Below, one piece after another: positions 16,746 to 63,630 of a stretch of 64,000 nucleotides of DNA (position 1 is the first letter of the stretch; every line of letters begins with the position of its first letter). The notes beneath the pieces are model-generated. The model worked only from the letters and a program-made list of their open reading frames with translations. It had not been told where the DNA came from and made no database searches. Origin of the DNA: Rhodobium gokarnense (GTDB lineage: Bacteria; Pseudomonadota; Alphaproteobacteria; Rhizobiales; Rhodobiaceae); NCBI RefSeq assembly GCF_025961475.1, contig NZ_JAOQNS010000002.1, positions 124,001 through 188,000 on the forward strand. Reading direction: 5' to 3'. The position numbers were made by a program, and so were the translations under genes.

Positions 16746-18167
16746 TCAGGACAGGAGTGCGTCGAGCCTGAGCTTCGCGATCCGCTCCACCTGGCCGCAG
16801 GCGGCGGCAAATTCCGTCTCCCGGTCGTTGCCGATGCGGGCCTCGAAGGCGGCAAGGATGTCGGCCTTCGTCAGCCCCTTGACGGCGATGATGAAGGGAA
16901 AGCCGAATTTTTCCTTGTAGGCTTCGTTGAGCTTGGTGAAGCGGGCGCGCTCGCCATCCGTCAGGGCGTCGAGCCCGGCGCCCGCCTGCTCGGCGGCGGA
17001 GTCCGCCGTCAGGCGCCTGGCCGTCGCCAGCTTGCCGGCAAGGTCTGGATGGGCGTTGAGGACGCCGAGCCGCTCCTCCGGCGTCGCCCTGCGGAACTGG
17101 TAGGTGAGGGCGGCGTGGAGGCCAGAAGCCGTGTCGTTGACGGGGCCCAGCTCGTCTTCGAAGGCGCGCTCGGCGATGAAGGGCGAATGCTCGAAGATGC
17201 CGCCGAAGTGCTCCAGGAATGCGTCCCGGTCCATCTGCGAGGGAACGAGCACCGGGCGCACGGGCGGATGGCGCTCCGTCCAGTGCCGGGCGATGTCGAT
17301 CCGCCGCGCGAACCAGACCTTGTCGTGGCTCCGGGCGTAATCGATGAAGCGGCGCAGGGCGCGTGCCCGTCCCGGTCGGCCGGCGAGCCGGCAGTGGAGG
17401 CCGATATTCATCATCTTCGGTCGGCCCTCGCGGCCTTCCAGGTAGAGTTCGTCGAAGGAGTCCTTCAGGTAGGTGAAGAACTGGTCGCCGCTGTTGAAGC
17501 CCTGGGGCGTCGCGAACCGCATGTCGTTGGCATCGAGCGTATAGGGGATGACGAGCTGGTCGCGGCCGGCATGGCGGTACCAGTAGGGCAGGTCGTCGCA
17601 ATAGGTATCGGAGACATAGTCGAAGCCGCCGATTTCCGTGACGAGGTCGACCGTGTTGACCGAGCAGCGCCCGGTGTACCAGCCGCGGGGTCTTTCACCG
17701 GTGACAGCCTCGTGCATCGCGATCGCCTGCAGGATGTCTGCCGTCTCGGCCTCTGGAGAAAAATCCTTGTATTCGATCCATTTGAGGCCGTGCGAGGCGA
17801 TCTCCCAGTCGGATTCCTGCATCGCCGACACCTGCTCCGGCGATCGTTTCAGCGCCGTTGCGATGCCATAGACCGTGACGGGGATGCCGGCGTCTGTGAA
17901 CAGGCGATGCAGCCGCCAGAAGCCGGCCCGGGCGCCATATTCGTAGATCGACTCCATGTTCCAGTGCCGCTTGGCGGGCCAGGGGGAGGCGCCGACAACC
18001 TCGGACAGGAACGCCTCGGAGGCCGCGTCGCCATGCAGCAGGCAGTTCTCCCCGCCCTCCTCGTAATTGATGACGAACTGGACGGCGATCGCCGCACCGT
18101 CCGGCCAAGCGGCACCCGGCGGGGTGGCGCCGTAGCCGTGCATGTCGCGGGGATATCGAAACGCCAA
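16746..18167 (-). CDS. puuE: PuuE allantoinase fused to OHCU decarboxylase (UraD)
   Basis: A single 473-residue polypeptide carrying two steps of urate breakdown. Residues 1 to about 305 are the cofactor-independent, polysaccharide-deacetylase-fold allantoinase PuuE (FRYPRDMHGYGATPP; VQFVINYEEGGENCLLHGD; WEIASHGLKWIEYKD; GWYTGRCSVNT). Residues about 310-473 are 2-oxo-4-hydroxy-4-carboxy-5-ureidoimidazoline decarboxylase, with AHPDLAGKL (H373), S390/Q394, NEAYKEKFGFPFI and the C-terminal RIGNDRETEFAAACGQVERIA. Together they convert OHCU to S-allantoin and then to allantoate. The fusion is known in some Proteobacteria. It is transcribed divergently from uraH across 151 bp, which supplies the preceding step. 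Confidence 0.95.
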   Translation of the reverse strand: MAFRYPRDMHGYGATPPGAAWPDGAAIAVQFVINYEEGGENCLLHGDAASEAFLSEVVGASPWPAKRHWNMESIYEYGARAGFWRLHRLFTDAGIPVTVYGIATALKRSPEQVSAMQESDWEIASHGLKWIEYKDFSPEAETADILQAIAMHEAVTGERPRGWYTGRCSVNTVDLVTEIGGFDYVSDTYCDDLPYWYRHAGRDQLVIPYTLDANDMRFATPQGFNSGDQFFTYLKDSFDELYLEGREGRPKMMNIGLHCRLAGRPGRARALRRFIDYARSHDKVWFARRIDIARHWTERHPPVRPVLVPSQMDRDAFLEHFGGIFEHSPFIAERAFEDELGPVNDTASGLHAALTYQFRRATPEERLGVLNAHPDLAGKLATARRLTADSAAEQAGAGLDALTDGERARFTKLNEAYKEKFGFPFIIAVKGLTKADILAAFEARIGNDRETEFAAACGQVERIAKLRLDALLS

Positions 18168-18318
18168 GGCGGGCCTCCTTTTTCTTGCCTTCGATATAAG
18201 ATCAAGGAACGATCGAAGTCACGCCGGTACTGCGCAGCGTTCCGGTTCGGCTTTGATCGGGCTATGCATTATGGAAAAGCTTATCTGAGCGGGTCGGACA
18301 GGGCAGGGGGAGCAAAAA

Positions 18319-18675
18319 ATGGCGGACGGCTATCTCACCACACACATTCTCGACACGGCCAATGGTGTTCCTGCGGCCGGCGTCGGCATCGTGCTCTATC
18401 GCCTTGAGGGGGAGACGCGCACGGAACTGGCGCGCACGACGACGAACGACGACGGCCGCACGGATGCCGCGCTGATCCCACCGGGCGCCCTGCAATGCGG
18501 AACCTATGAACTGGAATTCGCCATCGGTGCCTATTTCGCCGGCAAAGGCGTCGACCTCAAGCAGCCCTTCCTCGACGTGGTGCCGATCCGTTTCGGCATT
18601 GAAGATGAGGCCGCGCACTACCACGTGCCGCTGCTGGCCTCGCCCTTCGGCTACTCGACCTATCGCGGCAGCTAA
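18319..18675 (+). CDS. uraH: 5-hydroxyisourate hydrolase
   Basis: Transthyretin-related enzyme that hydrolyses 5-hydroxyisourate to OHCU, the step between PuuD and UraD. The 118-residue protein has every family hallmark: LTTHILDTANGVPA at the start with the catalytic histidine, TNDDGRTD in the middle with the conserved arginine, YHVPLLASPFGYSTY and the C-terminal YRGS. A GGGGGAGC ribosome site precedes the ATG. There is no signal peptide, so the enzyme is cytoplasmic. puuD follows 89 bp downstream on the same strand. Confidence 0.97.
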   Translation: MADGYLTTHILDTANGVPAAGVGIVLYRLEGETRTELARTTTNDDGRTDAALIPPGALQCGTYELEFAIGAYFAGKGVDLKQPFLDVVPIRFGIEDEAAHYHVPLLASPFGYSTYRGS

Positions 18676-18764
18676 AATCCCAAATGGCCGGCGCGTTTCT
18701 TGCTAGGTTTTTCGACGGATAGCGCCGGCAATCTGAGCGCCGACGGCAGAAGGGGTGACGGGCT

Positions 18765-19997
18765 TTGTACGAATTCGCACTTTACTGGGACTGGATGTCC
18801 TTCGCCGTCCGCTGGCTGCACGTGATTGCCGGCATCGCCTGGATCGGCTCGTCCTTCTATTTCATCGCCCTCGATCTGGGCCTGCGCCAGCGGCCGGGCC
18901 TGCCCCACGGTGTCCACGGCGAGGAGTGGCAGGTCCATGGCGGCGGCTTCTATCACATCCAGAAATACATGGTCGCGCCGGACCACATGCCGGACCACCT
19001 GATCTGGTTCAAATGGGAGAGCTACACGACCTGGCTCTCCGGCTTCGCGCTCCTGTGCGTCGTCTACTACGCCGGCGCCGATCTCTATCTGGTCGACCCG
19101 GCCGTCCTCGACGTGCCGGCCTGGGGCGGCATCCTCATTTCGCTCGCCACCATCGGCGTCGGCTGGGTGATCTACGACCTCGCCTGCAAGTCGCCGCTCG
19201 GCAAGAACGACACCTTGCTGATGGTCGTCCTCTATGTCGCCCTCGTGGTGCTTGCCTACCTCTTCACGCACCTGTTCACCGGCCGCGCCGCGCTCTTGCA
19301 TCTCGGCCTCATCACCGGCACGGCGATGTCGGCGAACGTCTTCTTCGTCATCATCCCGAACCAGGCAAAGGTCGTCGCCGCCCTCAAGGCCGGGGCGACG
19401 CCGGACCCGATGCTCGGCAAGAACGCCAAGCAGCGCTCCACCCACAACAACTACCTGACGCTGCCGGTCCTCTTCCTGATGCTCTCCAATCACTACCCGC
19501 TCGCCTTCGCGACCGAGTACAACTGGGTCATCGCCTCGCTGGTGTTCCTGATGGGCGTCACCATCCGCCATTTCTTCAACACCCACCACGCCGGCAAGGG
19601 AAATCCCTGGTGGACCTGGGCGGTGACGGCAGCCCTCTTTGCCGCGATCGCGTGGCTGTCGACGGCGGGACCCGGCGCGCCGGGTGACGGCGAGGAGGCG
19701 GCCCTGACGCCCCACGAAGAACGCTTCGTCCGGGTCGCCGGCTTCGAAGACGTCGCCAATGTCGTTGCCGGCCGCTGCACCATGTGCCACTCGGCCGAGC
19801 CCTACTGGGAGGGCATCGTCGCCGCGCCCAAGGGGGTGCGGCTGGAGACGGAAGCAGAGATCGCACGGCATGCCCGCGAGATCTACCTCCAGGCCGGACG
19901 CAGTCACGCCATGCCGCCCGCCAACGTCACCTTCGTGGAACCGGCCGAACGGGCGCTGATCCGGACCTGGTACGAGGCGGCGATCGCCGGCTCCTGA
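18765..19997 (+). CDS. puuD: Membrane urate hydroxylase with C-terminal cytochrome c domain
   Basis: Oxidises urate to 5-hydroxyisourate in the inner membrane, passing electrons to its own cytochrome c domain and the respiratory chain, instead of using a soluble uricase. The 410-residue protein has about eight membrane segments between residues 12 and 300 (WLHVIAGIAWIGSSFYF at the start, VFLMGVTIRHFFNTHH late) and a periplasmic cytochrome c domain with the heme motif CTMCH at 338-342 and a likely distal methionine M383 in HAMPPAN. The reading frame opens with TTG at 18765, preceded by AGGGG; the first ATG (18795) would cut into the first membrane segment, so the TTG start is preferred. Confidence 0.95.
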   Translation: MYEFALYWDWMSFAVRWLHVIAGIAWIGSSFYFIALDLGLRQRPGLPHGVHGEEWQVHGGGFYHIQKYMVAPDHMPDHLIWFKWESYTTWLSGFALLCVVYYAGADLYLVDPAVLDVPAWGGILISLATIGVGWVIYDLACKSPLGKNDTLLMVVLYVALVVLAYLFTHLFTGRAALLHLGLITGTAMSANVFFVIIPNQAKVVAALKAGATPDPMLGKNAKQRSTHNNYLTLPVLFLMLSNHYPLAFATEYNWVIASLVFLMGVTIRHFFNTHHAGKGNPWWTWAVTAALFAAIAWLSTAGPGAPGDGEEAALTPHEERFVRVAGFEDVANVVAGRCTMCHSAEPYWEGIVAAPKGVRLETEAEIARHAREIYLQAGRSHAMPPANVTFVEPAERALIRTWYEAAIAGS

Positions 19998-20657
19998 GCC
20001 CGGCACGGCGCCCGGCAAGGGCATTGCGCATCGCATTGGCGACGGAAGCACGTTGCGGAAATGCGACAGAACTTCACAAGGGGTCTCGCGCAGGTATTGA
20101 GATCAGCGCCAAATCTCGTGTAGAAATTGTATGCAGTTATTCAGCTAAACCCCGAAAACAAATATAGAAAACACTGAGAGGCATCTTTTCAGTGACCCCG
20201 CGGGACGTCCACATAGTGGCCCTGCAACCCATGAGACGCCTGCAGTTTTGCAGGGACAAGCCTCAGATATTCCACATATATTAGCGCACCAGGGAGGGCC
20301 CGCTTTCGGGGGAGGCGGGTACGTCGCCGGGCTTTACGACGGCGGCGAAAACGACAACGGAAGTTGTCCGGAGTGTGAAAGGTCTGTTTCCCGCCTTCGG
20401 GGAGTTGTCGGCATCGCCGGCAGCGGGAACGGATGACCGGTGTGGCGCTCCGGCAACGAAAAAGAGGGAGACGGTCTGCGCCGCAAGCGGGGCGCAGGGC
20501 GCGATCGACACCATGCAGGGGCGTCCGCATCGTCGGAACCGCCGACCTTTCCGTCAGGCATCCATCTGGCCGCTATCACGAGCCCGGCAGCGGAGGAGGG
20601 CATAGAATCGCGGGCGGCCCTGCGTCAGTTGACCGACTAAGAAAAAGAACGAGAACC
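19998..20657. other. 660-bp intergenic leader upstream of the LuxR-type gene
   Basis: No convincing gene. Around 20050-20200 the base composition turns AT-rich, unlike the neighbours, and is probably the promoter zone. The palindrome at 20239-20254 is listed separately. Reading frames through the second half are open but have no domain character. Confidence 0.45.
20239..20254. promoter_or_regulatory. Perfect palindrome resembling a lux-box-like operator
   Basis: CCTGCA-GTTT-TGCAGG has perfect 6-bp arms and a 4-bp centre, about 400 bp upstream of a LuxR-family gene. LuxR-type sites have CTG...CAG dyads but usually a wider centre, so this is only suggestive. No T-run follows, which argues against a terminator. 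Confidence 0.35.
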
Positions 20658-21788
20658 ATGACCGGCACCTCCGAATGCAGCGACCTCATCGATCTGATCT
20701 ATCTTTGTGCGACCGACCGGGCCCGTTGGCCCGAGACGCTGGATGCCATCAGGGGGCACCTGAATTTCGACTGGATCGCCATTGTCGGCTGCGGGACCGA
20801 GCCATCGGCTTTCCGGAAATATTACGAGACCCTCGGAAACGATGACCACTGGCGCGAATACGACCAGTACTACAAGTATATCAACCCCGTCAGCCGGTAC
20901 CTGAAGCAGAATCCCGATCAGCAGATATTCTACGACCGCATGGTGATGGAACGCCACGAGCTGGCGAGCAGCGAGTTCGATGCCTGGGCCGCCCGCTACA
21001 ACAGCCGCCATATCCTCGGCACCTCGATCATGCCGCTTTCGAACGGCACCCAGATCTATCTCGGCTTTCATCGGGCCGCCGAAAAGGGCCACGCCACCGC
21101 CGCCGAAATCGCGGCTTTGGAGGTCCTTGCGCCGCATCTCGGCCGGGCGTTCCGGACCTCCCATGCCGCCGCTTGCGGGCGGCCGGCGGTCCCGGTCCTC
21201 GACGCGGTCGTGGAAAGCTACGTCGCGGGCATCGCCTTCCTCTCCCTGGAGGGCGAGATCGCCCGGACCAACAAGGCCTTCGACGAAATCCTGAAGAGCC
21301 ACCAGTGCATCAGCGTCGAGAACCGTCGGCTCCGCATCGCCGATGTCGCCGTCCAGCAGGAACTGGAACGCAAGCTCTACATCGCCTTCCAGAGCCGCCG
21401 GCGCGGCGAGACGCTGCAGAAGGACCAGATCCTGTTTCGCACGGCCAAGGACGACATCTTCGTCGGCGTCTACATCCACCCCCTGCCGCAGCAGCCGGCC
21501 TTCGAGTTCTGCACCGAGGACGCCGTCATCGTCTACCTGCACAGCTCCATGAACTACAGCCCGACGGCGACGGAGCGCTTCGCCGCCCATTTCCGGCTCA
21601 CGGCGACGGAAAAGAAGGTGCTGGAATCGCTGCTGAAAGGCTATTTCCTGGAGGAGCACGCCGAGCGCCACGACATTTCCATCGGCACGGTCCGCTGGCA
21701 CATGCAGAACATCCTGCAAAAGACCCGGACCCGCAACCAGACCCAGCTCGTGCGCGCCGTCTCCTCGATGCTCTTCTACCGCTACTGA
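20658..21788 (+). CDS. LuxR-family transcriptional regulator (C-terminal HTH)
   Basis: 376-residue regulator. The last 65 residues form a LuxR/GerE helix-turn-helix (RLTATEKKVLESLLKG, then ISIGTVRWHMQNILQKTRTRNQTQLV). The first 300 residues contain no recognisable acyl-homoserine-lactone-binding pattern; the middle part (VAGIAFLSLEGEIARTNKAFDEIL) looks PAS-like, so it may sense another ligand. The ATG at 20658 (MTGTSECSDLIDLIY) was chosen because the upstream frame is arginine-rich and featureless. It stands alone behind a 660-bp leader between the purine island and the globin-like gene. A role in controlling either is possible but not shown. Confidence 0.85.
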   Translation: MTGTSECSDLIDLIYLCATDRARWPETLDAIRGHLNFDWIAIVGCGTEPSAFRKYYETLGNDDHWREYDQYYKYINPVSRYLKQNPDQQIFYDRMVMERHELASSEFDAWAARYNSRHILGTSIMPLSNGTQIYLGFHRAAEKGHATAAEIAALEVLAPHLGRAFRTSHAAACGRPAVPVLDAVVESYVAGIAFLSLEGEIARTNKAFDEILKSHQCISVENRRLRIADVAVQQELERKLYIAFQSRRRGETLQKDQILFRTAKDDIFVGVYIHPLPQQPAFEFCTEDAVIVYLHSSMNYSPTATERFAAHFRLTATEKKVLESLLKGYFLEEHAERHDISIGTVRWHMQNILQKTRTRNQTQLVRAVSSMLFYRY

Positions 21789-22117: not shown

Positions 22118-22606
22118 ATGACGTCACATCTGCAAGAGACCGCTCACCGGGTCGTCGAGCCGAGCGCGTTCATCCGTCTGGAACGGGAGGACGCGGCCAA
22201 CGGCCGGGCGATCTGGCACCTCCTTGAGCACCGCATGGACGCCGTTCTCGATGTCTGTTTCAGCCGCATCACGCAGAACGACACGGCCGGCATGGACAAG
22301 GACCAGACCGTCGATTTCTTCCTCTGGCAGGTCGACCACTGGCGGCGCCTTTTCACCGGCACGATGGACGAGGCCTATGCCGCGGACATCCGCCGCACGG
22401 GCGTTGCCCAGAACCTCAGCGGCGTCGATCTGCGCTGGTACAGCGTCGTCTACACGACGATCGCCAACGAGATCGTCAAGGTGATCGCCATGGCCTTCGA
22501 GGGCGACGGCCGCAGGATCGCCGCCCTGGTCGCCACGCTGAACCGGCATATCGCGGTCGACTCGCAGATGACCCTGTCGGCCTACAGCGCCCACCTGCTC
22601 GACTGA
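22118..22606 (+). CDS. Stand-alone globin-coupled-sensor-like (protoglobin-type) domain protein without proximal His
   Basis: 162-residue, all-helical-looking protein with no signal peptide or membrane segment. The central part reads FFLWQVDHWRRLFTGTMDEAY, then ADIRRTGVAQNLSGVD, then LRWYSVVYTTIANEIV. This follows the pattern of sensor globins (hW..lF.G..d..Y, then iG..H...gl...WY). In haem-binding members the position after G-x-x is the proximal histidine; here it is glutamine (GVAQ), so haem binding by the usual ligand is unlikely. It may be a haem-free sensor or protein-protein module. Strong ribosome site (GAGAGGAAGGGG). No output domain is attached. The next gene is the transglutaminase cluster, 114 bp downstream. 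Family assignment is by pattern only. Confidence 0.6.
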   Translation: MTSHLQETAHRVVEPSAFIRLEREDAANGRAIWHLLEHRMDAVLDVCFSRITQNDTAGMDKDQTVDFFLWQVDHWRRLFTGTMDEAYAADIRRTGVAQNLSGVDLRWYSVVYTTIANEIVKVIAMAFEGDGRRIAALVATLNRHIAVDSQMTLSAYSAHLLD

Positions 22607-22720: not shown

Positions 22721-25700
22721 TTGTCGATCCAGGCCGCCATCCGCCACCTGACCCATTACCGCTACGACCGTCCCGTCAGCCTCAGCCCACAGGTCATCCG
22801 TCTCAGGCCCGCACCGCACAGCCGCACCAGGGTGATTTCCCATGCGCTGAAGGTCAGCCCGCCGGATCACTTCGTCAATCACCAGCAGGACCCCTACGGC
22901 AACTGGCTGTCGCGCTTCGTCTTTCCCGAGCCGGTGACGGAATTGAAGATCGAGGTCGACCTGGTCGCCGACATGACGGTCTACAATCCGTTCGACTTCT
23001 TCGTCGACGACAGCGCCGAGCACTGGCCCTTCGCCTATCCGGAGGACCTCAAGGACGACCTCGCCATCTACCGCACGCCGGAGCCGGCCGGCCCCAGGCT
23101 GCAGGCCTTCCTCGACACGGTGCCGCGGGAAAAGGTCCGCACCGTCGATTTCATCGTCGCCCTCAACGCGCGCGTCTCCGGCGAGGTCGGCTACATCATC
23201 CGCATGGAGCCAGGCGTGCAGACGCCCGAGGAAACGCTGACCCGCGCGTCCGGCTCGTGCCGCGATTCCGGCTGGCTGATGGTCCAGGCGCTGCGCCATC
23301 TGGGCTTTGCCGCCCGCTTCGTCTCCGGCTATCTGATCCAGTTGAAGCCGGACATCGTCTCCCTCGACGGCCCGCCGGGCACCGATCACGACTTCACCGA
23401 CCTCCATGCCTGGTGCGAAGTCTATATCCCCGGCGCCGGCTGGATCGGCCTCGACCCCACCTCGGGGCTGCTGACCGGCGAAAGCCACATCCCGCTCGCC
23501 GCCACGCCCCACTACCGCAATGCCGCGCCGATCTCCGGCTCCGCCAGCTATGCCGAGGTCGACTTCGACTTCCACATGGAGGTAATGCGCACGGCCGAGC
23601 ACCCGCGCATCACCAAGCCGTTCTCCGACGAGGCCTGGTCGGCGCTGAATGCTCTCGGCGACAAGGTCGACGCCGCCCTTGAGGAGGGCGACGTGCGTCT
23701 CACCATGGGCGGCGAGCCGACCTTCGTCTCCATCGACGACTTCGAATCCGACGAATGGAACACCCATGCGGTCGGCCCGATGAAGCGCGACCTCGCCGAC
23801 ACGCTGATCCGGCGCCTGCGCGACCGCTTCGCCCCCGGCGGCTTCCTGCATTACGGCCAGGGCAAGTGGTATCCGGGCGAAAGCCTGCCGCGCTGGACGT
23901 TCTCGCTCTACTGGCGCCGCGACGGCAAGCCGATCTGGGCCGATGCCGGCCTCATCGCCAAGGAGGGCGCCGACACCGGCGCTGGTCCCGACGAGGCCAA
24001 GACCCTGCTGGAAGGCATGGCCGATCGCATCGGCGTCGAGGCCGACCTCGTCGTGCCGGCCTATGAGGACCCGGCCGAGTGGGTGCTGAAGGAAGGCAGG
24101 CTGCCGGAGAACGTCACTCCGGAAAATTCCAAGCTGAAGGACGCGGAGGAGCGCAACCGCATCGCCCGCGTCTTCTCGCGCGGGCTCAACGAGCCGGCCG
24201 GCTACATCCTGCCGGTGCAGCGCTGGCAGAGCCGCGCCTCCGGCCCGCGCTGGCGGTCCGAGCGCTGGAAGCTGCGCCGCGGCCACATCTTCCTCATCCC
24301 CGGAGACAGTCCGGTCGGCTTCCGCCTGCCGCTGGAAGCTCTGCCGCACGTCTCCGAATCCCAGTACCCCTACACCTTCGTCGCCGATCCGAGCGTGCCG
24401 CGCGGCCCGCTGCCGGATTTCGCCGCGGCGATGGAAGAGGCCGCGGCGGAAGAGCCGGAAGCGAAGGGCGACCGGCCGCAGCCGGCGGCGAGCTTTACCG
24501 CGGTGGAGCCTGGCCAGGAGCGGGTCGAGCAGGTCGCCGGCGGCGACAACGAGCACCCGGTGCGGACCGCCCTCAGCGTCGAGCCGCGCGACGGCCGGCT
24601 CTGCGTGTTCATGCCGCCGGTGGAATCGGTGGAGGACTATCTGGAACTCGTCGCCGCCGCCGAGGCGACCGCCGCCGAAATGGGCTTGCCGATCCACATC
24701 GAAGGCTACGCCCCGCCGGGCGATCCGCGCATGAACGTCATCCGCGTCGCCCCCGATCCGGGCGTCATCGAGGTCAACATCCACCCGGCGACGAACTGGA
24801 AGGACTGCGTCCTTACCACCGAGACGATCTACGAGGAGGCGCGCCTCACCCGCCTCGGCGCCGACAAGTTCATGATCGACGGCCGCCACACCGGCACCGG
24901 CGGCGGCAACCATGTAGTGGTCGGCGGCGCGACGCCGATGGACAGCCCGTTCCTGCGGCGGCCGGACCTTTTGCGGAGCATCATTCTCCACTGGCAGCGC
25001 CACCCGAGCCTCTCCTACCTCTTCTCCGGCCTCTTCATCGGCCCGACCAGCCAGGCGCCGCGCATCGACGAGGCCCGCCACGACAGCCTCTACGAGCTGG
25101 AGATCGCGCTCTCCCAGATCCCCCATCCGGGCGCGGGAACGCCGCCGGCGCCCTGGCTGCTCGACCGGCTCCTTCGCAACATCCTGATCGATGTCACCGG
25201 CAACACCCACCGGGCCGAGATCTGCATCGACAAGCTCTATTCGCCGGACGGCCCCACCGGCCGCCTCGGCCTTGTCGAATTCCGCGGTTTCGAGATGCCG
25301 CCGCACCCGCGCATGAGCCTTGCCCAGCAGGTGCTCCTGCGCGCCCTCATCGCCCGCTTCTGGCAGGCCCCGGTCGGCGGCGACCTGACCCGCTGGGGCA
25401 CGGTCCTGCACGACCGCTTCATGCTGCCCCATTTCGTCTGGGACGATTTCCTCGATGTGCTGAAGGACCTCGCCGGCCACGGCTTCGAATTGAGGCCCGA
25501 ATGGTTCGAGGCCCAGGCCGAGTTCCGCTTCCCGTTCTGCGGCGCCGTCACCTATGAGGGCGTGGAGATGGAAATCCGCCAGGCCCTGGAGCCCTGGCAT
25601 GTGCTCGGCGAGACCGGCGCCATCGGCGGCACCGTGCGCTATACGGACAGCTCCGTGGAGCGCCTGCAGGTCAAGCTGACGACCACCGACCCGGATCGCT

Positions 25701-26077
25701 ACGTCGTCACCTGCAACCGCCGCCGCGTTCCATTGAACAAGACCGGCACGGGGGGCGTTGCCGTCGGCGCGGTGCGCTTCAAGGCCTGGCAGCCGGCGAT
25801 GGCGATGCACCCGGCGCTGCCGGTCGATGCGCCGCTCACCTTCGACATCTTCGACAACTGGTCCGGCCGGGCGCTCGGCGGCTGCGTCTACCACGTCGCC
25901 CATCCGGGCGGGCGCAGCTACGACACCTTCCCGGTCAACGGCTACGAGGCCGACGCCCGCCGGCTTGCCCGCTTCGAGGCCCATGGCCACACGCCGGGGC
26001 TCTACGAGCCGCCGCCGGAGACACCGCACAAGGAATTCCCGATGACGCTCGACCTGCGCCGTCCGCCGGGGCTGTGA
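22721..26077 (+). CDS. Transglutaminase-like protease domain fused to DUF2126 (amidoligase-associated)
   Basis: Large cytoplasmic protein of 1118 residues from a TTG at 22721 with GGGAG ten bases upstream; this start gives the common family N-terminus ([20 protein letters not shown]). A GTG at 22670 adds 17 residues. Residues 1 to about 100 are the bacterial transglutaminase N-terminal beta domain. The papain-like transglutaminase core follows, with the triad C180 ([10 protein letters not shown]), H229 (LHAWCEVY) and D245 (GLDPTSG). DUF2126 starts near residue 325 with [15 protein letters not shown] and runs to the C-terminus. Proteins of this kind are always found with circularly permuted ATP-grasp/Alpha-E proteins. 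Comparative genomics proposed a peptide-tagging or peptide-synthesis role; no reaction is proven. First gene of the cluster. Confidence 0.92.
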
Positions 26078-26080
26078 CGG

Positions 26081-26095
26081 CGCCCCTTCGGGGCG
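26081..26095 (+). terminator. Small GC hairpin right after the DUF2126 stop codon
   Basis: CGCCCC-TTC-GGGGCG is a perfect 6-bp stem with a 3-base loop, starting 4 bp after the stop codon. No T-run follows, so it may only pause or attenuate transcription. Confidence 0.35.
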
Positions 26096-26167
26096 GCGAT
26101 GCTATTCTGTGAACAAAATCACCCATAATGCCGCAAGCAAGGGAACCGCGGCGCGATCTTGTTGATT

Positions 26168-26184
26168 GTAGACTTAATTCGTCT
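26168..26184. promoter_or_regulatory. TAGAC-N7-GTCTA palindrome in an AT-rich promoter zone
   Basis: A 17-bp inverted repeat (TAGAC TTAATTC GTCTA) lies in the 258-bp gap between the two big genes of the peptide-modification cluster, within an AT-rich segment (26100-26220) that looks like a promoter. It suggests that the ATP-grasp/Alpha-E gene has its own controlled promoter. Confidence 0.4.
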
Positions 26185-26335
26185 AGGCTCGTTTTCCGAA
26201 AAAAGCGGTCTGCAATCTTTCCGGCACTTAACCGCGATAGAATTGGCGACGGATGCGTTCCGGCCCGTGTCCTGTTGTGACAAGGTGCCGGGATCGCCGC
26301 GATGAAACGGTATTCAACAGGTCGGACCGACGGAC

Positions 26336-28741
26336 ATGACGACCGAGACTGCAGCCGAGACGGACATGCTCGACGCGCTTCTGAAAAACTATCGCCCGCC
26401 GACCGGAAGCGCCGATGAGCTGCTCGACGCCTCGGGTAATATCCGTCCTGTCTGGAACCCCTTCGTCAACTATCTCGCCGGCCTTGCCCCGGAGGATATC
26501 ACCCGCCAGTTCGGCAATGCCGACCAGTATCTGCGTGATGCCGGCGTGTTCTTCCGCCAGTACGGCGAGGAGGGTGCGGCGGAGCGCGACTGGCCGCTCA
26601 GCCATGTCCCCGTCATCATCAACCAGGACGACTGGACGCAAATCGCTGAAGGGTTGAGCCAGCGCGCCGACCTGCTCGAGGCGCTTGTCGCCGACCTTTA
26701 CGGCCCCAACCGGCTGGTCCGCGACGGCTATCTGCCGGCCTCGCTGATCGCCCGCAGCCCGGAATGGCTGCGCCCGTTGGTCGGCGTCGCCCCGCGCTCC
26801 GGCCATTTCCTGCATTTCATCGCCTTTGAGATCGGCCGCGGCCCGGACGGCACCTGGTGGGTGCTCGGCGACCGCACCCAGGCGCCCTCCGGCGCCGGCT
26901 TCGCGCTGGAAAACCGCGTCGCCACCACCCGCGCCTTTTCCGATTTCCTCGCCAGGGCCCATGTCCACCGCCTCGCCGGCTTCTTCCGCGAGTTCCGCGA
27001 CGCGCTGACCGCGCTGCGCGGCGACGACGAGGGCCGCGCCAGCATCCTGACGCCGGGACCCCACAACGACACCTATTACGAGCACGCCTATATCGCCCGC
27101 TATCTCGGCCTCTGGCTGCTGCAGGGCGAGGACCTCACCGTCGAGAACGGCCGCGTCATGGTCCGCACCATCTCGGGGCTCAGGCCGCTCAGCGTGCTGT
27201 GGCGCCGGGTCGATGCGGAATGGGTCGACCCGCTGGAACTGAACGAGGGCTCGCGCCTCGGCACCGCCGGCCTCATCGGCGCCATCCGCTCCGGCAACCT
27301 GACGATGGTCAACGCGCTCGGCAGCGGCGTGCTGGAGACCCGCGCCCTTCTCGCCTTTCTGCCGCGCGTCTGCAAGGCGCTGCGCGGCGAATCCCTGCAG
27401 CTTCCGAACGTCGCCACCTGGTGGTGCGGCCAGGAGGCGGAGCGCGACCACGTCAAGGCCAATCTCGACGGCATGCTGGTCGACGACGCCCTGTCGACCC
27501 GGCTGCCCTTCGAGCCGTCGCGCACCCGGCGCGGCCGCCGGCCCGGTCCGGACCGCGATCCCGAGGCGCTGTTGAAATGGATCGACGGCGATCCCGGCGC
27601 CGTCGTCGGCCAGGAGGTCGTGACGCTGTCGACGACGCCGGCCTATGTCGACGGCGAGCTGCTGCCGCGGCCGATGAGCCTGCGCGTCTTCCTCGCCCGC
27701 ACGCCGAACGGCTGGACCGTCATGCCCGGCGGCTTTGCCCGCATCGGCCACAGCGATGATCCGGCGGCAATCGCCATGCAGAAGGGCGGCTCGGCCGCCG
27801 ACGTCTGGATCGCCGCCGACGGTCCCGTCGACCACTCCGTGACGCTGACGCAGCCCGAGACGCCGTTCCGCCGCCGGCGCCCGCCCATGCTGCCGAGCCG
27901 CGCCGCCGACAACCTCTACTGGCTCGGCCGCTACATCGAGCGTTCAGAGGGCCTGTTCCGGCTGACCCGCGCCTACCACGCCCGCCTTGCCGAGGCCGAG
28001 GACCCGGCCTCCGATCCGCTTCTGATCGCCCTCGGCGAGCACCTTGCCGGCTTCGGCGTGGAGCCGGAGGAATGCCTGCCGGAGGGCCTGTGCAGTGCCG
28101 TCGATGCCGCGGTGACGAGCGCCAGCCAGATCCGCGACCGCTTCTCGATCGACGGCTGGACGGCGCTTTCCGAATTGCGCCGCGAGGTCAATGGCATGCG
28201 CCGCAGGGTCCGGCCGGGCACCGACTGCGCCGCCGCCATGGGCGTCCTGTTGCGCAAGATCACCGGCTTTTCCGGCCTCGTCCACGAAAACATGTACCGG
28301 GTCTCCGGCTGGCGCTTCCTGCGCATCGGCCGCGCCCTGGAGCGGGCGCTGGCGACGACCTCGGCCCTTGCCGTCTTTGCCGATCCGGAAAGCCCGGTCG
28401 GCGGCCTCGACCTTGCCGTTGAGATCGGCGACAGCGTCATGTCCCACCGCCGCCGCTACTCCGTCGCGACCAGCCGGCCGACCGTCGTCGATCTTCTCGC
28501 CCTCGACGACAGGAACCCGCGCTCCGTGCTCTACCAGCTGTCCGACATCCATGACCATGTCGATGCCCTGCCCGGCGCCAGTGTCAACGGCCAGCCCTCC
28601 GAACTGGTCAAGGCGGTGCTGCGCGCCGAGACCGATCTCATGGTCGAGAGCCCGGAGACCTTGGACACGACGGCGCTCTATGCCACCTGGAGCGCCATCG
28701 CGGAGATCTCCGACCGGCTTTTCGAAGCGTATCTGAGATAG
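26336..28741 (+). CDS. Circularly permuted ATP-grasp protein fused to Alpha-E domain
   Basis: 801-residue fusion. Residues about 25-505 are a circularly permuted ATP-grasp (older names DUF404/DUF407): RPVWNPFVNYL at the start, HFLHFIAFEIGRGPDGTWWV, LTPGPHNDTYYEHAYIARYLG, and LPRVCKALRGESLQLPNVATWWCG, a hallmark of the family. Residues 518-801 are the helical Alpha-E domain (older name DUF403), opening with MLPSRAADNLYWLGRYIERSE. In many genomes these are separate neighbouring genes; here they are one protein. ATP-grasp enzymes activate a carboxylate as acyl-phosphate and ligate an amine, so a peptide- or amide-forming role is inferred. Followed after 9 bp by the small transglutaminase gene. 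Confidence 0.93.
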   Translation: MTTETAAETDMLDALLKNYRPPTGSADELLDASGNIRPVWNPFVNYLAGLAPEDITRQFGNADQYLRDAGVFFRQYGEEGAAERDWPLSHVPVIINQDDWTQIAEGLSQRADLLEALVADLYGPNRLVRDGYLPASLIARSPEWLRPLVGVAPRSGHFLHFIAFEIGRGPDGTWWVLGDRTQAPSGAGFALENRVATTRAFSDFLARAHVHRLAGFFREFRDALTALRGDDEGRASILTPGPHNDTYYEHAYIARYLGLWLLQGEDLTVENGRVMVRTISGLRPLSVLWRRVDAEWVDPLELNEGSRLGTAGLIGAIRSGNLTMVNALGSGVLETRALLAFLPRVCKALRGESLQLPNVATWWCGQEAERDHVKANLDGMLVDDALSTRLPFEPSRTRRGRRPGPDRDPEALLKWIDGDPGAVVGQEVVTLSTTPAYVDGELLPRPMSLRVFLARTPNGWTVMPGGFARIGHSDDPAAIAMQKGGSAADVWIAADGPVDHSVTLTQPETPFRRRRPPMLPSRAADNLYWLGRYIERSEGLFRLTRAYHARLAEAEDPASDPLLIALGEHLAGFGVEPEECLPEGLCSAVDAAVTSASQIRDRFSIDGWTALSELRREVNGMRRRVRPGTDCAAAMGVLLRKITGFSGLVHENMYRVSGWRFLRIGRALERALATTSALAVFADPESPVGGLDLAVEIGDSVMSHRRRYSVATSRPTVVDLLALDDRNPRSVLYQLSDIHDHVDALPGASVNGQPSELVKAVLRAETDLMVESPETLDTTALYATWSAIAEISDRLFEAYLR

Positions 28742-28750
28742 GCGGCGCCC

Positions 28751-29629
28751 GTGCTTTTCGATATCCGCCTTCAGATCACCTACGAATACGAGGACCCGGC
28801 GGTCGCCGCCCGGCACATCCTCCACCTGATGCCCGCCGGCCTCGACGGCGAGCAGCGCCTGATCGCCGGCTCCATCGACATCCAGCCGCCGCCGGACGAA
28901 TGGATCAGCCGCACGGATTTCTTCGGCAACCAGGTCGCCGAGATCGCCTATCGCTCGCCCCATTCGGAGGAGTCCTTCCTCGTCCAGGGGCGGGTCGAGC
29001 GTTTTGCCCGCGGCGCGGAACTGGACATCACGCCTCCGCTTGCCGGCCTTTCCCGGGAGATCGCCGGGGTCCATTCGCTGGGGCCCGACGCGCCGACCCA
29101 TTTCCTCGGCGCCTCCAAGCGGGTGCCGATCGACGACGACATCACCGCCTATGCCCGCGAGCAGATATCGGACGGCATGACGGTCTTCGACATCGTCAGG
29201 ACCTTCGGCCTGGCGCTGAACCGCGACATCCGCTTCGACCCGGAGGCAACGACGGTGGAGACGCCGCCGCGCGAGGCCTTCGACAACCGGCACGGGGTCT
29301 GCCAGGACTTCACGCACATCATGATCGCGGGGCTTCGCGGCCTCGGCATTCCGGCCGGCTATGTCAGCGGCTTTCTGCGCACCGAGCCGCCGCCGGGCCA
29401 GCCGCGGCTGGAAGGCGCGGACGCCATGCACGCCTGGGTCCGCGCCTGGTGCGGCATCGAGACCGGCTGGATCGAGTACGATCCGACCAACGCCATGATG
29501 GTCGGCCAGGACCACATCGTCATCGCCCGCGGCCGCGACTATTTCGACGTCGCCCCGGTCAAGGGCGTCTCCCGCAGCTCCGGCACCCAGACCACCAAGC
29601 AGGCGGTGGACGTGATCCCGCAGGGGTGA
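28751..29629 (+). CDS. Transglutaminase-like cysteine protease/amidase
   Basis: 292-residue cytoplasmic protein, last gene of the cluster. It opens with a GTG (MLFDIRLQITYEYEDPAVAARHILHLMP), typical of the bacterial transglutaminase N-terminal beta domain. The papain-like core has C184 (GVCQDFTHIMIAGLRGLGIP), H227 (AMHAWVRAWCG) and D244 (WIEYDPTN), so the triad is complete. Proteins with this fold usually cleave or transfer amide bonds. In this setting it is predicted to process the product of the ATP-grasp/Alpha-E enzyme, or to remove a tag. Only 9 bp separate it from the ATP-grasp gene, so they form an operon. Confidence 0.92.
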   Translation: MLFDIRLQITYEYEDPAVAARHILHLMPAGLDGEQRLIAGSIDIQPPPDEWISRTDFFGNQVAEIAYRSPHSEESFLVQGRVERFARGAELDITPPLAGLSREIAGVHSLGPDAPTHFLGASKRVPIDDDITAYAREQISDGMTVFDIVRTFGLALNRDIRFDPEATTVETPPREAFDNRHGVCQDFTHIMIAGLRGLGIPAGYVSGFLRTEPPPGQPRLEGADAMHAWVRAWCGIETGWIEYDPTNAMMVGQDHIVIARGRDYFDVAPVKGVSRSSGTQTTKQAVDVIPQG

Positions 29630-30876: not shown

Positions 30877-32337
30877 TCAGAACAAAGTGAAATACTCCCG
30901 CTGCTCCCACTCGGAGACCGTGGTCAGATAACGGTCCCACTCCGCCCGCTTGATGCGCGAGAGGTAGGCGACGAACTCCGGGCCGATGGCGCCGGCAAAG
31001 AGCGTGCCCGCCTCGAAGGCCTCGACGGCCGAGATCAGGCTCTTGGGCAGTTCCGGCGCGCCGCTGTCATAGGGCGTCTCGACCGGTGCGGGGGCTTCCA
31101 GCCCGCGCGCAAGGCCGTCGAGGCCGGCAAGGATCTGCGAGGCGAAATAGTAGTAGGGGTTGGCAGCCGGTTCGGCGACCCGGTTCTCGATCCGGCTCGC
31201 CCGGTCGTGCGGGCTGAAGAGGGCGCGGATCATCGCCCCCTTGTTGTCGTGACCCCACTGGATGCGGTCCGGCGCCAACTGGTAGGGCTGGTAGCGCTTA
31301 TAGCCGTTGACCGTCGGCGTGGTCAGGAGGCAGCACTCCGCGGCGTGCTCCAGAAGCCCGGCGATCCAGGCCGAAGCGGTCGGGCTGATGGTGCCGTCGG
31401 CGGCCGGCATGAAGAGGTTGTCGCCGGTCGCGAGGTCCTGCACGGACTGGTGCAGGTGCCAGCCGCTCGCCGCCCCGTTGTCGACCTTCGGCCGGCACAT
31501 GAAGGTGCCGTGCAGGCCCCGCTGGCGGCAGTACTGCTTGGTCATCGACCGGAACAGCATCATCGCGTCGGCATGGGCCATGGGGTGATCCGGATCGAAG
31601 GTGAATTCAAGCTGGCTCGGCCCGAACTCGGCCTCCATGGACCGGATCGGCAGGCCGAGGGTCTCGCAGCCGCGCCGCAGCTCGTCCATCAGCCCTTCCA
31701 GCATGTCGTAGACGCCTTCCGTCAGGAGCTGGTAGCCGTGGGCGAGCAGGCTGGTCTCCGGCGGCAGGCCCGGCATGCCCGCATCGCCATGGGCGAGCCG
31801 TGTCTCCTCGATGCGGAAGATATGGAACTCGACCTCAAGGCCAACGGTGAGTTGCAGGCCGCGCTCCGTCAGCTTGTCGAGCGCCGTCTTCAGCACGGTG
31901 CGGGCGGAAAACGGGATCGCGCTGCCGTCCTTCTGGACGACATCGCAGAGGATCGAGGCCGAGTGCGGCGAGAACGGCAGCACCCGGTAAGTGGCCGGAT
32001 CGGGGACGAGGAGGATGTCCCCGGCACCGACCAGCGCGCCGGTGCCGAAGCCGGCGTCCGTGCCCCAGACCGGAAACACGGTTCGGTGCGAGGTGTCCTT
32101 CAGGAGCAGGGTGGAGGGCGCGGTGATGCCGTTCTTGAAGGCGGAGGCCACCGCTCCCGCGACCATCGTCTTGCCGCGCAGGACGCCGTGCTGGTCGGCG
32201 AAGGAGAACCGCACGGTCTCGATGCCATCGGCCTGGAGGCGCTCGATGACGTCGGCGGCCAGCCGCGCGTCCTCCGGCGTCATGTGGCCGTGCTCGGCGA
32301 GGAACCCGGCGGCAATGTCAGAAGCGATATCGGCCAT
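30877..32337 (-). CDS. Glutamine synthetase-like protein (probable gamma-glutamyl-amide/amine ligase)
   Basis: 486-residue member of the glutamine synthetase superfamily, of the GlnA-like group that glutamylates amines or similar compounds rather than making glutamine. Visible: RFSFADQHGVLRGKT (N-terminal beta-grasp), VGLEVEFHIFRIEE (metal-binding glutamates), EAEFGPSQLEFTFDP, GSGWHLHQSV-like GAASGWHLHQS, NGYKRYQPYQLAPDRIQWGHDNKG, and RIENRVAEPAANPYYYFAS (metal-binding glutamate/arginine). The adenylylation-site region of true GlnA was not recognised. It is the last gene of a five-gene operon, 30 bp after the Rieske oxygenase gene, which suggests catabolism of a glutamylated substrate. Good AAAGGA ribosome site. 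Confidence 0.88.
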   Translation of the reverse strand: MADIASDIAAGFLAEHGHMTPEDARLAADVIERLQADGIETVRFSFADQHGVLRGKTMVAGAVASAFKNGITAPSTLLLKDTSHRTVFPVWGTDAGFGTGALVGAGDILLVPDPATYRVLPFSPHSASILCDVVQKDGSAIPFSARTVLKTALDKLTERGLQLTVGLEVEFHIFRIEETRLAHGDAGMPGLPPETSLLAHGYQLLTEGVYDMLEGLMDELRRGCETLGLPIRSMEAEFGPSQLEFTFDPDHPMAHADAMMLFRSMTKQYCRQRGLHGTFMCRPKVDNGAASGWHLHQSVQDLATGDNLFMPAADGTISPTASAWIAGLLEHAAECCLLTTPTVNGYKRYQPYQLAPDRIQWGHDNKGAMIRALFSPHDRASRIENRVAEPAANPYYYFASQILAGLDGLARGLEAPAPVETPYDSGAPELPKSLISAVEAFEAGTLFAGAIGPEFVAYLSRIKRAEWDRYLTTVSEWEQREYFTLF

Positions 32338-32367
32338 CGTTCGGTCCTTTACGTCAGGAACGGGCGC

Positions 32368-33684
32368 TCACAGCGCTGCGTCCCAGGAGCAGGCGGTGCG
32401 GCGGGCGGCGTCGCTGTCGCGCCAGAGGCTGTCCCAGTCGTCGCTCGGGCCGATCGCATCGATGGCGACCGGGCCCTTGACCTCGGCAAGATCGCCCTCG
32501 CCCAGCATCGGCAGGCCTTCGGTGGAGCCTTCGGCCACCTTGGCGATGGCGGCGCGCATCAGCCGCCGGTAGCGCGAGATGCCGACATCCGTGCGGCCGA
32601 GATGCTCGCGGGTGCGGTCCTGGATCGGCCCCATGGATTCCACCGCCCACTGGTCGTGGACGTTGATGTCGAGGCCCATGCCCGTATAGGTGAGGTCGCG
32701 CTGTTCGTCCGGATCGTAGCCGTAATTGTTGCGCTTGTTGCGGACCGGCGCGTAGTCCGGCAACCGGTGCTCCTTGAGGCGCTGTTCGCGCATCAGGGTC
32801 TTGTTCACCGGCTTCCCGAAGCTGACGAACATGGAGTACCAGTAGCAGGTCTCGTCATCGATCGGCACGTGCCACTGGGTGATCGTCATCTCGTTCGACA
32901 TCGGGATGCAGATCGCCTCCGGGAACACCTGATTGGTGACGCGCACATGGCTGCGCCCGTCCGGCATGTGCCGGAGCGCGATCAGCCTGAGGCCGTAATC
33001 GGTCTCCTCCACCTTGATCTCCGGCCGCGGATAGTCGCGCAGGAGCTGGGTCATCGGGATATCGGTGTCGGCGGCGCGGTCGCGGAACTGCTTGCCGTAG
33101 CCCTCGTTCGGGTCCTCGTCCTGCAGGAAGCGGTGCAGGAACGAGGCGTGCGCCGGGTCGATGCCAACCTCTAACGCCTGCAGCCAGTTGCACTCCCACA
33201 GCCCCTTGAAGGCAAAGACGTGGCTGTCCGGCGCGGCAAAGCAGTCAAGGGCCGGGAAGGGCGGCGGATCGCCGGGGCCCATATAGGCAAAGACGATGCC
33301 GTTCTTCTCCTCGACCGGATAGGACGTCACCTTGATCTGGGTGTGCATCTGGCTCTTTTCCGGCTCGCCGGGCTGCTCCACACACTGGCCGGTGCGGTCG
33401 AAATGCCAGCCGTGGAAGGGGCAGCGGAGGCCGTCGTCCTCGCGCCGCCCGAAGCACAGGTCGACGCCGCGGTGCGGGCAGAACCGGTCGATGAGGCCGA
33501 GCTTGCCGGAATTGTCGCGAAACAGCACCAGATCCTCGCCGAGGAGTTTGACCGGCACGACGGGGCGCTCGGCGACCAGTTCGTCGGACAGCGCGGCCGG
33601 CTGCCAGTAGCGGCGCAGCACATCGCCGGCCGGCGCGCCGGGACCGACGCGGGTCAACTGGTCGTTCTGTTCCTGGCTCATCAT
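32368..33684 (-). CDS. Rieske [2Fe-2S] ring-hydroxylating oxygenase, alpha subunit (phthalate dioxygenase type)
   Basis: 438-residue catalytic oxygenase subunit. The Rieske motif is CPHRG...CPFHGW (residues about 69-93). The mononuclear iron site appears in DPAHASFLH, the usual D-x2-H-x4-H arrangement. The N-terminal QNDQLTRVGPGAPAGDVLRRYW pattern and length place it with the homomultimeric phthalate 4,5-dioxygenase-like group that needs no beta subunit. No reductase or ferredoxin gene lies nearby, so electrons must come from a partner elsewhere. Two adjacent ATGs (33684, 33681) are possible starts behind GAGGAG. It lies between the TRAP transporter genes and the GS-like gene on one strand. 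Substrate unknown. Confidence 0.9.
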   Translation of the reverse strand: MMSQEQNDQLTRVGPGAPAGDVLRRYWQPAALSDELVAERPVVPVKLLGEDLVLFRDNSGKLGLIDRFCPHRGVDLCFGRREDDGLRCPFHGWHFDRTGQCVEQPGEPEKSQMHTQIKVTSYPVEEKNGIVFAYMGPGDPPPFPALDCFAAPDSHVFAFKGLWECNWLQALEVGIDPAHASFLHRFLQDEDPNEGYGKQFRDRAADTDIPMTQLLRDYPRPEIKVEETDYGLRLIALRHMPDGRSHVRVTNQVFPEAICIPMSNEMTITQWHVPIDDETCYWYSMFVSFGKPVNKTLMREQRLKEHRLPDYAPVRNKRNNYGYDPDEQRDLTYTGMGLDINVHDQWAVESMGPIQDRTREHLGRTDVGISRYRRLMRAAIAKVAEGSTEGLPMLGEGDLAEVKGPVAIDAIGPSDDWDSLWRDSDAARRTACSWDAAL

Positions 33685-62590: not shown

Positions 62591-63630
62591 CCACCGACCC
62601 CGTAAAGACCGAACCCGCTGTAGGCTCTGGCGCCCAGCAGAAGGTCAAGTTCTACCAGACCGGCACCCACACCGTCGGCAACCGGCTGCTCGACGAGGCC
62701 CAGCGCACCGTCCAGGCCTCCATGGACCGCTCCAACGCCATCACCTCCGGCCACCGCGCCTGCCAGGGCTGCGGCGAGGCGCTCGGCGCCCGCTATGCGC
62801 TGGACGCGGCGATGATGGCGACCGAAGGCCAGCTCATCGCGGTCAACGCCACCGGCTGCCTTGAGGTCTTCACCACGCCCTATCCGGAAACCTCCTGGCA
62901 GATCCCGTGGCTGCATTCCCTGTTCGGCAATGCGCCCGCGGTCGCCACCGGCGTTGCCGCCGCGCTCCGGGTCAAGGGCCGCGACAATGTCCGCGTCGTT
63001 GCGCAGGGCGGCGACGGCGGCACGGTCGACATCGGCTTCGGGTGCCTGTCCGGCATGTTCGAGCGCAACGACGACGTGCTCTACATCTGCTACGACAACG
63101 AGGCCTACATGAACACCGGCGTGCAGCGCTCCTCGGCGACGCCGCCGGCCGCCCGCACCGCGACGACGCCCGCCGTCGGCGACGAGCCGGGCAACGTCTT
63201 CGGCACCGGCAAGAACCTGCCGCTGATCGCCATGGCCCACAACATCCCCTATGTCGCCACCGCCAGCGTCGCCGACCTGCACGACCTGGAGGAAAAGGTG
63301 ACCAAGGCGATGAGCATCCACGGCGCCCGCTACATCCACATCATGGTGCCCTGTCCGCTCGGCTGGGGCGCCGCCTCCCACGACACCATGAAGCTCGCCC
63401 GCCTTGCCGTCCAATCGGGCATCTTCCCGCTGTTCGAGGCCGAGCACGGCGAGGTCAAGACCGTCCAGAAGATCCGCCGCAAGGTGCCGGTGGAGGAATA
63501 TCTGAAACCGCAGAAGCGCTTTGCGCATCTGTTCAAGGGCGAAGGCGACGTCGACCGCATCGCCGCCATCCAGCGCATGGCCGATGCCAACATCAAGCGC
63601 TTTGGCCTTCTCGACGGAGAGGAACGGTAA
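62587..63630 (+). CDS. 2-oxoacid:acceptor oxidoreductase, beta subunit
   Basis: 347-residue thiamine diphosphate- and [4Fe-4S]-binding subunit. Cluster cysteines are visible in CQGCGEALGARYALDA and ATGCLEVF. The ThDP motif reads GDGGTVDIGFGCLSGMFERNDDVLYICYDNEAYMNTG, with SSATPPAARTATTPAVGDE after it, a typical loop of pyruvate- and phenylglyoxylate-type beta subunits. Its stop shares one base with the start of the next gene (TAATG). Whether the substrate is pyruvate, a branched 2-oxoacid or an aryl-2-oxoacid cannot be told here. Confidence 0.95.
   Translation: MTTDPVKTEPAVGSGAQQKVKFYQTGTHTVGNRLLDEAQRTVQASMDRSNAITSGHRACQGCGEALGARYALDAAMMATEGQLIAVNATGCLEVFTTPYPETSWQIPWLHSLFGNAPAVATGVAAALRVKGRDNVRVVAQGGDGGTVDIGFGCLSGMFERNDDVLYICYDNEAYMNTGVQRSSATPPAARTATTPAVGDEPGNVFGTGKNLPLIAMAHNIPYVATASVADLHDLEEKVTKAMSIHGARYIHIMVPCPLGWGAASHDTMKLARLAVQSGIFPLFEAEHGEVKTVQKIRRKVPVEEYLKPQKRFAHLFKGEGDVDRIAAIQRMADANIKRFGLLDGEER

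Follow-up and report, generated by a model that had tools for sequence, protein, structure and literature searches.

Three genes in the window

The window analysed here is a stretch of 64,000 nucleotides (nt) from Rhodobium gokarnense (contig NZ_JAOQNS010000002.1, positions 124,001 to 188,000). It contains three consecutive genes on one strand, which encode a transglutaminase-like protein with a DUF2126 region, a fusion of a CP-ATP-grasp with Alpha-E, and a second transglutaminase-like enzyme. Systems that combine a transglutaminase, a COOH-NH2 ligase, a CP-ATP-grasp and Alpha-E were reportedly predicted by Iyer et al. 2009. The features of the cassette are the following, in window coordinates:

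22721..26077, + strand: gene for a transglutaminase-like protein with DUF2126, a putative amidoligase (open reading frame scan, Pfam)
26078..26335, no strand: gap of 258 nt between gene 1 and gene 2
26336..28741, + strand: CP-ATP-grasp/Alpha-E fusion gene (Pfam matches at residues 92-470 and 519-800; the ATP-grasp half appears degenerate)
28751..29629, + strand: gene for the second transglutaminase-like enzyme (triad C184/H227/D244)

Open reading frames (ORFs) and Pfam domains agree on this arrangement and confirm that the trio is real, intact and ordered as in an earlier account made from the letters alone (the sequence-only reading). Protein 1 matches Bact_transglu_N, Transglut_core (55.7 bits) and DUF2126 (1341.4 bits, profile positions 3-826 of 826); protein 2 matches CP_ATPgrasp_2 (431.6 bits) and Alpha-E (191.8 bits); and protein 3 matches Bact_transglu_N and Transglut_core. 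The transglutaminase-like domain of protein 1 occupies residues 23-263, counted in the ORF from 22670, and its C180/H229/D245 triad (codons at 23258, 23405 and 23453) is invariant in 40/40 aligned rows. The triad of protein 3 is invariant in 37/37; both triads are intact, as that account had held. The longest ORF for protein 1 begins at GTG 22670; most aligned relatives begin at TTG 22721, which appears to fit most homologues better as the start. By eye there is no evident signal peptide, which suggests a cytoplasmic location for the system.

Relatives of protein 1 are encoded in at least 593 stretches of the named genomes scanned; the best 80 were kept and, with the window, make up 81 sources. 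In 72 of these, the genes for DUF2126, the fusion and the transglutaminase follow one another in this order on one strand, and because so many sources share both order and strand, the arrangement is not due to chance. Nine loci are partial, four of them (L046, L073, L086, L090) ending at contig ends. In 52 of the 72 loci, genes 1 and 2 are separated by -4 to 30 nt; the 258-nt gap of the window is the second largest, and the congener L026 has it too, with changes. When ORFs of 18-100 amino acids (aa) were collected from the 700-nt flanks of the 72 sources, 53 clusters were obtained, the largest covering 7 loci (Mesorhizobium and one metagenome-assembled genome), and no conserved small-peptide gene was found, in keeping with the earlier statement that no obvious acceptor peptide is encoded at the locus. 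A search with six peptide patterns found no viral carriers of the cassette. The cassette in the window is typical of a kind that is widespread and uncharacterised.

The fused ATP-grasp and its stand-alone paralogue

Another CP-ATP-grasp of the same genome is encoded on contig C8 (locus L023), in a cassette of its own. There, a 491-aa ATP-grasp is accompanied by a 314-aa Alpha-E, a transglutaminase-like gene and a 248-aa Anbu:

Contig C8 of the own genome (G000), 62724-63467: Anbu gene (protein-query search of the genome)

The genome search with PF00227 missed this gene, its sole match being HslV on contig C18, next to HslU; the protein query recovered it, and hmmscan of the protein gives 29.7 bits to the proteasome family, above the cut-off of 22.4. 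Residues T1, D17 and K32 (numbering as in PMC6376114) are present by eye. The window cassette has no Anbu gene; the genome's Anbu lies beside the canonical ATP-grasp/Alpha-E/transglutaminase set. The statement of the sequence-only reading that no proteasome-like hydrolase is encoded here is true of the window; the genome as a whole encodes Anbu on C8 and HslV on C18. The ATP-grasp of the C8 cassette has the canonical residues and is probably the working one. An alpha-amylase-family gene (L023:10999-12936) adjoins this cassette.

The fused and stand-alone forms were compared in an alignment of 31 stand-alone rows (30 distinct, the own copy entering twice) with 120 fused proteins, the window's included. 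In the stand-alone form, 103 columns reach a conservation of 97% or higher; for 38 of these the fused proteins retain the residue at a rate of 90% or more, and for 33 at a rate below 10%. The fused protein departs from the set of residues expected of a competent CP-ATP-grasp (numbered as in the own stand-alone copy): E164 is kept in 2% of fused proteins, N166 in 0% (Arg in 108/120), K325 in 1%, K372 in 10%, D432 in 0% and N464 in 1%, and the Gly-rich stretch GGYG at 378-381 is mostly lost (3-20% kept). R168 (3%) and S174 (0%, Gly in 119) are also lost. The one actinobacterial fused protein examined (Tsukamurella) shows the same losses, and the crystal structure 3n6x carries the stand-alone pattern. 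In the Alpha-E half, the residues of the ER motif are kept wherever trimming left them.

AlphaFold models the fusion with good confidence (pLDDT 87.5, pTM 0.82), and the modelled fold matches 3n6x first, followed by glutathione synthetases and glutathionylspermidine (Gsp) synthetase/amidase. All 38 matches at E of 0.001 or below are ATP-grasp ligases, so the Alpha-E half is left without a structural relative. Weak Pfam ATP-domain matches are seen for the stand-alone proteins with ATPgrasp_ST (9/23; residues 360-426 of the own copy) and YheCD (8/23); for the fused proteins YheCD alone is among the matches listed (2/39). On the strength of the fold match, these weak domain matches and known features of glutathione synthetase, the lost residues are taken to be the ATP/Mg site; the literature search found no paper assigning these positions to it. 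Fused and stand-alone proteins fall on opposite sides of one branch, which has full SH-aLRT support, in a quick tree of 89 rows, and the fused copies diverge faster (median ratio 1.90 for 324 pairs from 26 loci; the fraction above 1 is printed as 1.00). The fused proteins of L172, L163 and L040 lie on very long branches in this tree (1.6-2.3 changes per column), far longer than the others.

Taken together, the alignment and the model suggest that the fused ATP-grasp retains the fold and not the site, and it looks like a conserved enzyme that is either dead or repurposed. Tested alone, it may show no activity. The sequence-only reading had the ATP-grasp building or attaching a peptide and had named the loss of ATP-binding residues on alignment as refuting this. 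Such loss is what was found in 33 of the 103 columns, and because the lost residues are invariant in the stand-alone paralogues, the proposal finds no support. Its remark that the fusion fixes the stoichiometry is trivially correct for the two fused domains; the ATP-grasp that does the work, however, is probably the unfused copy.

Co-occurrence of the cassettes and a probable nitrogen link

Co-occurrence was counted in 61 related genomes, the own one included, with shared ancestry ignored; a CP-ATP-grasp in a frame of at least 800 aa was scored as fused, and one of 472-604 aa as stand-alone. DUF2126 is present in 18 of the 61, and the fused type occurs in the same 18/18 and in 0/43 of the others (G031 has the two genes on separate contigs). 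The stand-alone ATP-grasp is found in all 18 genomes with DUF2126 and in 19/43 without it (p = 2e-5, kinship ignored); for genomes of at least 3.3 Mb and at least 90% completeness, the counts are 16/16 and 15/24 (p = 0.006, kinship ignored). Anbu was found in 15/18 DUF2126 genomes and in 17/43 others. A sample of 299 Pseudomonadota gives a similar picture (kinship again ignored): at least one CP-ATP-grasp is present in 84/84 DUF2126 genomes and 77/215 without DUF2126, and at least two are present in 79/84 and 10/215, respectively.

The two cassettes can also lie side by side. Of 38 loci taken from the 299-genome sample, whose regions were not random and were placed in part to include canonical ATP-grasp matches, 29 have a canonical ATP-grasp and DUF2126 together in a stretch no longer than 20 kb (12/20 in the first batch, which is less affected by this placement); Anbu is visible in 11 of the 38. 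An array in Burkholderia arboris has, on one strand, canonical ATP-grasp, Alpha-E, transglutaminase, DUF2126, the fused protein and transglutaminase (G-A-T-D-GA-T). Outside the alphaproteobacteria, the cassettes of Pseudomonadota often adjoin each other; among 80 named loci of the alphaproteobacterial type, a canonical ATP-grasp is near DUF2126 only in L044. The locus L160, from a genome with a single CP-ATP-grasp, holds DUF2126 and Anbu together with one copy each of transglutaminase, Alpha-E and canonical ATP-grasp. The motifs that were checked are in place, and the system there apparently does without the fused protein.

A link to nitrogen begins with the partner cassette on C8, which has a perfect sigma-54 site, TGGCACGGGACTTGCT, ending 38 nt before the ATG. 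This is the only perfect site within the 20 kb of that cassette, and the genome has a sigma-54 gene. Sites with at most one mismatch lie within 350 nt of the stand-alone ATP-grasp gene in 7/37 cases (own included), against 0.38 expected. Across the 38 loci from the 299-genome sample, sites with at most two mismatches are found at 14/29 stand-alone ATP-grasp genes (3.2 expected) and in 14 of the regions upstream of DUF2126 (4.8 expected); the B. arboris array has 9 (8.4 expected), which is no excess. A scan for NtrC sites, which covered the region upstream of DUF2126, gave a palindrome with at most three mismatches in 26/79 stretches (12.8 expected); this candidate was rejected because 3/60 permuted half-sites did equally well.

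Published expression data also connect genes of this kind with nitrogen limitation. In B. cenocepacia, I35_5080-5083 are down by log2 6.0-9.4 in an ntrC mutant (glnA by 4.8) and are named among the common NtrC/sigma-54 targets (PMC5491218). Their labels (DUF404/DUF407, DUF403, transglutaminase-like, and 'large protein containing transglutaminase-like domain'; PMC5491218) suggest that they are the first four genes of a B. arboris-type array. In P. putida, nitrogen limitation raises PP_2686-2688 11-37-fold, and these genes appear under NtrB/NtrC (PMC7801951); in another study PP2685 is up 11.1-fold (PMC3325844). Marine metagenomes show a correlation of these domains with urea metabolism (PMC3597751). 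Overall, the case for a nitrogen link is fair.

Proposed role, alternatives and neighbouring genes

A tentative reading, to which we give a probability of about 0.47, treats the window cassette as a module of the Anbu amide-bond system: together with the C8 cassette, as the other half, it would make up a cytoplasmic system for the formation and cleavage of amide bonds. It builds on the anatomy, the residue loss, the co-occurrence, the clustering and the partner's promoter site, and goes on to propose a bond chemistry and direction, a role for nitrogen in this organism and a role for the fused protein. The canonical ATP-grasp on C8, with its glutathione/glutathionylspermidine-synthetase fold, would activate a carboxylate with ATP; DUF2126, as a putative ligase of the GCS2/glutamine-synthetase type, would form a second bond; and the two transglutaminase-like thiol enzymes together with Anbu would cleave or transfer the product. 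The fusion in the window would be a pseudo-ATP-grasp that binds a substrate or partner, or regulates, with no canonical (or an altered) use of ATP. The partner cassette, with its sigma-54 site, would probably be switched on in nitrogen limitation. Release of phosphate from ATP by the ATP-grasp of the Y. bercovieri Anbu operon is the only published turnover for such proteins (PMC6376114). The mechanism of the sequence-only reading is partly right; it left out the amidoligase label of DUF2126, the degeneracy of the fused ATP-grasp and the canonical cassette elsewhere in the genome.

A more specific form of this reading, unlikely as it stands, would make the window the control or acceptor half of a conjugation cycle in nitrogen starvation. 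The pseudo-ATP-grasp/Alpha-E would offer the canonical ATP-grasp of the Anbu cassette, and DUF2126, a peptide or amine, and a glutathione-like gamma-glutamyl conjugate would be built and then dismantled by the two thiol enzymes and Anbu. If this is true, Anbu would be a deconjugating amidase and not a protease.

The weakest link in the mechanism is DUF2126 as second ligase. Because Pfam labels it a putative amidoligase, the cassette may hold another ligase. The profile alignment of DUF2126 with GCS2, itself non-significant, pairs GNHVVVGG with MHVHVG and VEFR with LEMR, and by eye a ten-residue stretch of the DUF2126 protein resembles GIEEEYLLVD of a YbdK-like protein. The model of the DUF2126 protein is of moderate confidence (pLDDT 74.7, pTM 0.63).

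Several observations weigh against the two-cassette reading. The profile comparisons of DUF2126 with GCS2 are not significant (YbdK-type E 0.07, GshA-type E 0.58), and by Foldseek its best ligase-type match, YbdK, is weak (E 0.074), with glutamine synthetase at E 0.22. The fused ATP-grasps have R434 in 120/120 proteins and also retain D255, G270, D287, N315 and further positions among the invariant ones. They may therefore have an altered activity, which is how the authors of PMC5919673 interpret a nematode relative of glutathione synthetase that has its catalytic Arg but no longer the canonical activity. For Anbu itself, no peptidase or amidase activity and no stable complex was detected in the work of PMC6376114. 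Anbu was not found in 3/18 DUF2126 genomes, and the small genomes G094 and G120 have DUF2126 with a single CP-ATP-grasp. Five untruncated loci (L045, L057, L084, L098, L116) have DUF2126 without the other two genes adjoining, and S. meliloti Ak57 and a Tsukamurella plasmid have the fused protein and transglutaminase without an adjoining DUF2126. No sigma-54 site lies near the window cassette, and upstream of DUF2126 in 79 stretches there are 8 such sites against 7.9 expected, which is chance; a sigma-54 site for the window cassette was rejected on these grounds. In P. putida, PP_2686-2688 are still up 14-20-fold in an rpoN mutant (Table 2, PMC7801951), evidence against a need for sigma-54 in that species; the Anbu gene PP_2685 is up no more than 1.12-fold in the wild type (PMC7801951). 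The evidence on sigma-54 control is mixed: it is suggested here by sequence and supported in B. cenocepacia, and contradicted by the P. putida table.

Some of these points bear on a rival, rather unlikely in our view, in which the window cassette is a self-contained second amide-ligase system. Its fused ATP-grasp would be active, with altered residues and another substrate, and its co-occurrence with Anbu would reflect shared ancestry by duplication. The universal R434 fits this, as do new residues that the fused form conserves in its own right (R180 in 108/120, G188 in 119, E334 in 116) and the separation of the cassettes in 79/80 alphaproteobacterial loci. It fits less well with the joint loss of E164, N166, D432, N464 and most of the Gly-rich stretch, with the adjoining clusters and the one six-gene array in other classes, or with a stand-alone form in every one of the 18 DUF2126 genomes.

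A distinctly improbable rival is nitrogen scavenging by deamidation: under nitrogen starvation, proteins or peptides would yield ammonia or amino acids through the action of Anbu and the thiol enzymes, with the ligases serving just to recharge a carrier. Induction in nitrogen limitation (PMC7801951, PMC3325844, PMC5491218) is what it would predict, the idea has been raised for the transglutaminase (PMC6376114), and urate genes adjoin the window cassette; however, two kinds of ligase are kept alongside, the activity it would ask of Anbu was not detected (PMC6376114), and nitrogen genes are not conserved neighbours (none was seen among the 45 largest neighbour clusters listed). Pupylation-like tagging, with DUF2126 attaching a genetically encoded small peptide to proteins, is very improbable: a published assignment of DUF2126 to the same ligase superfamily as the Pup ligase (PMC2588565) and Anbu's kinship with the proteasome speak for it, but the flanks of the 72 sources hold no conserved small ORF, most loci leave no intergenic room for one (52/72 gaps of -4 to 30 nt), and PMC2588565 reports no Pup-like ORF near such genes.

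The two-cassette reading can be set beside known systems. Gsp synthetase/amidase offers a likeness in that an amide ligase is paired with a papain-like amidase. The ATP-grasp half in the window has the same fold as that enzyme (2io7_B, E 1.3e-6) and as the eukaryotic-type glutathione synthetase (3kal_B, E 3.4e-11), but at about 11-12% identity and without the conserved residues of the stand-alone form. With the systems of Iyer et al. 2009 the window cassette shares domains and predicted theme, and its membership among predicted amide-ligase systems with transglutaminase-like enzymes, as the earlier account had it, is supported; the differences are that the Alpha-E-fused ATP-grasp here appears degenerate and that its cassette accompanies a canonical one. 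A transglutaminase-ligase protein of the Rv2566 type has also been named (PMC2588565). The ATP-grasp, Alpha-E and transglutaminase of the window are paralogous to those of the Anbu operon (P. putida PP_2685-2688, Y. bercovieri), which this genome has on C8; unlike that operon, the window cassette lacks Anbu, has DUF2126, and carries a fused ATP-grasp that looks degenerate. To the GCS2/YbdK carboxylate-amine ligases and PafA, among which DUF2126 may belong, the likeness consists of the amidoligase label of DUF2126, the weak YbdK fold match and the non-significantly aligned motifs.

The degeneracy of the fused ATP-grasp, its occurrence alongside a canonical cassette and the nitrogen link across both seem to be new; no paper stating the degenerate copy or its pairing was found in the literature covered, which was partial. 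The function of Anbu and of the widespread Alpha-E, ATP-grasp and transglutaminase genes has been open since 2008-2009 (PMC6376114). The present results point assays to the stand-alone ATP-grasp, with nitrogen limitation as the first condition, in genomes that have both cassettes or in a family with one merged minimal set (L160).

Several neighbouring genes deserve mention. Upstream of the cassette, at 16746-19997, are genes of urate catabolism (a polysaccharide-deacetylase/OHCU decarboxylase fusion, HIUase and urate oxidase), with a sigma-54-like site of two mismatches at 18689-18704 before the urate oxidase gene; among the relatives and named loci searched with them, these genes were recovered beside the cassette only in the congener L026. 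Directly upstream and on the same strand are a protoglobin (22118-22606) and a LuxR-type regulator (20433-21788), a pair that adjoins the cassette in L026 and in 0 of 16 other relative loci and 0 of 80 named loci searched. Downstream, on the opposite strand (30877-33684), lie genes for a Rieske oxygenase and a glutamine-synthetase-like protein, the latter scoring 223 bits to gamma-glutamylputrescine synthetase (cut-off 650). Elsewhere, a zinc-ribbon/Peptidase_Mx metallopeptidase gene adjoins the DUF2126 cassette in 9/80 loci (L047, L057, L087, L090, L096, L098, L103, L104, L117), at most 20 nt away in four of them; a search for it gave no match in the own genome, nor in the control genomes of that search. 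In several rhizobial loci (L063, L067, L272 and others), glycogen genes lie 3' of the cassette.

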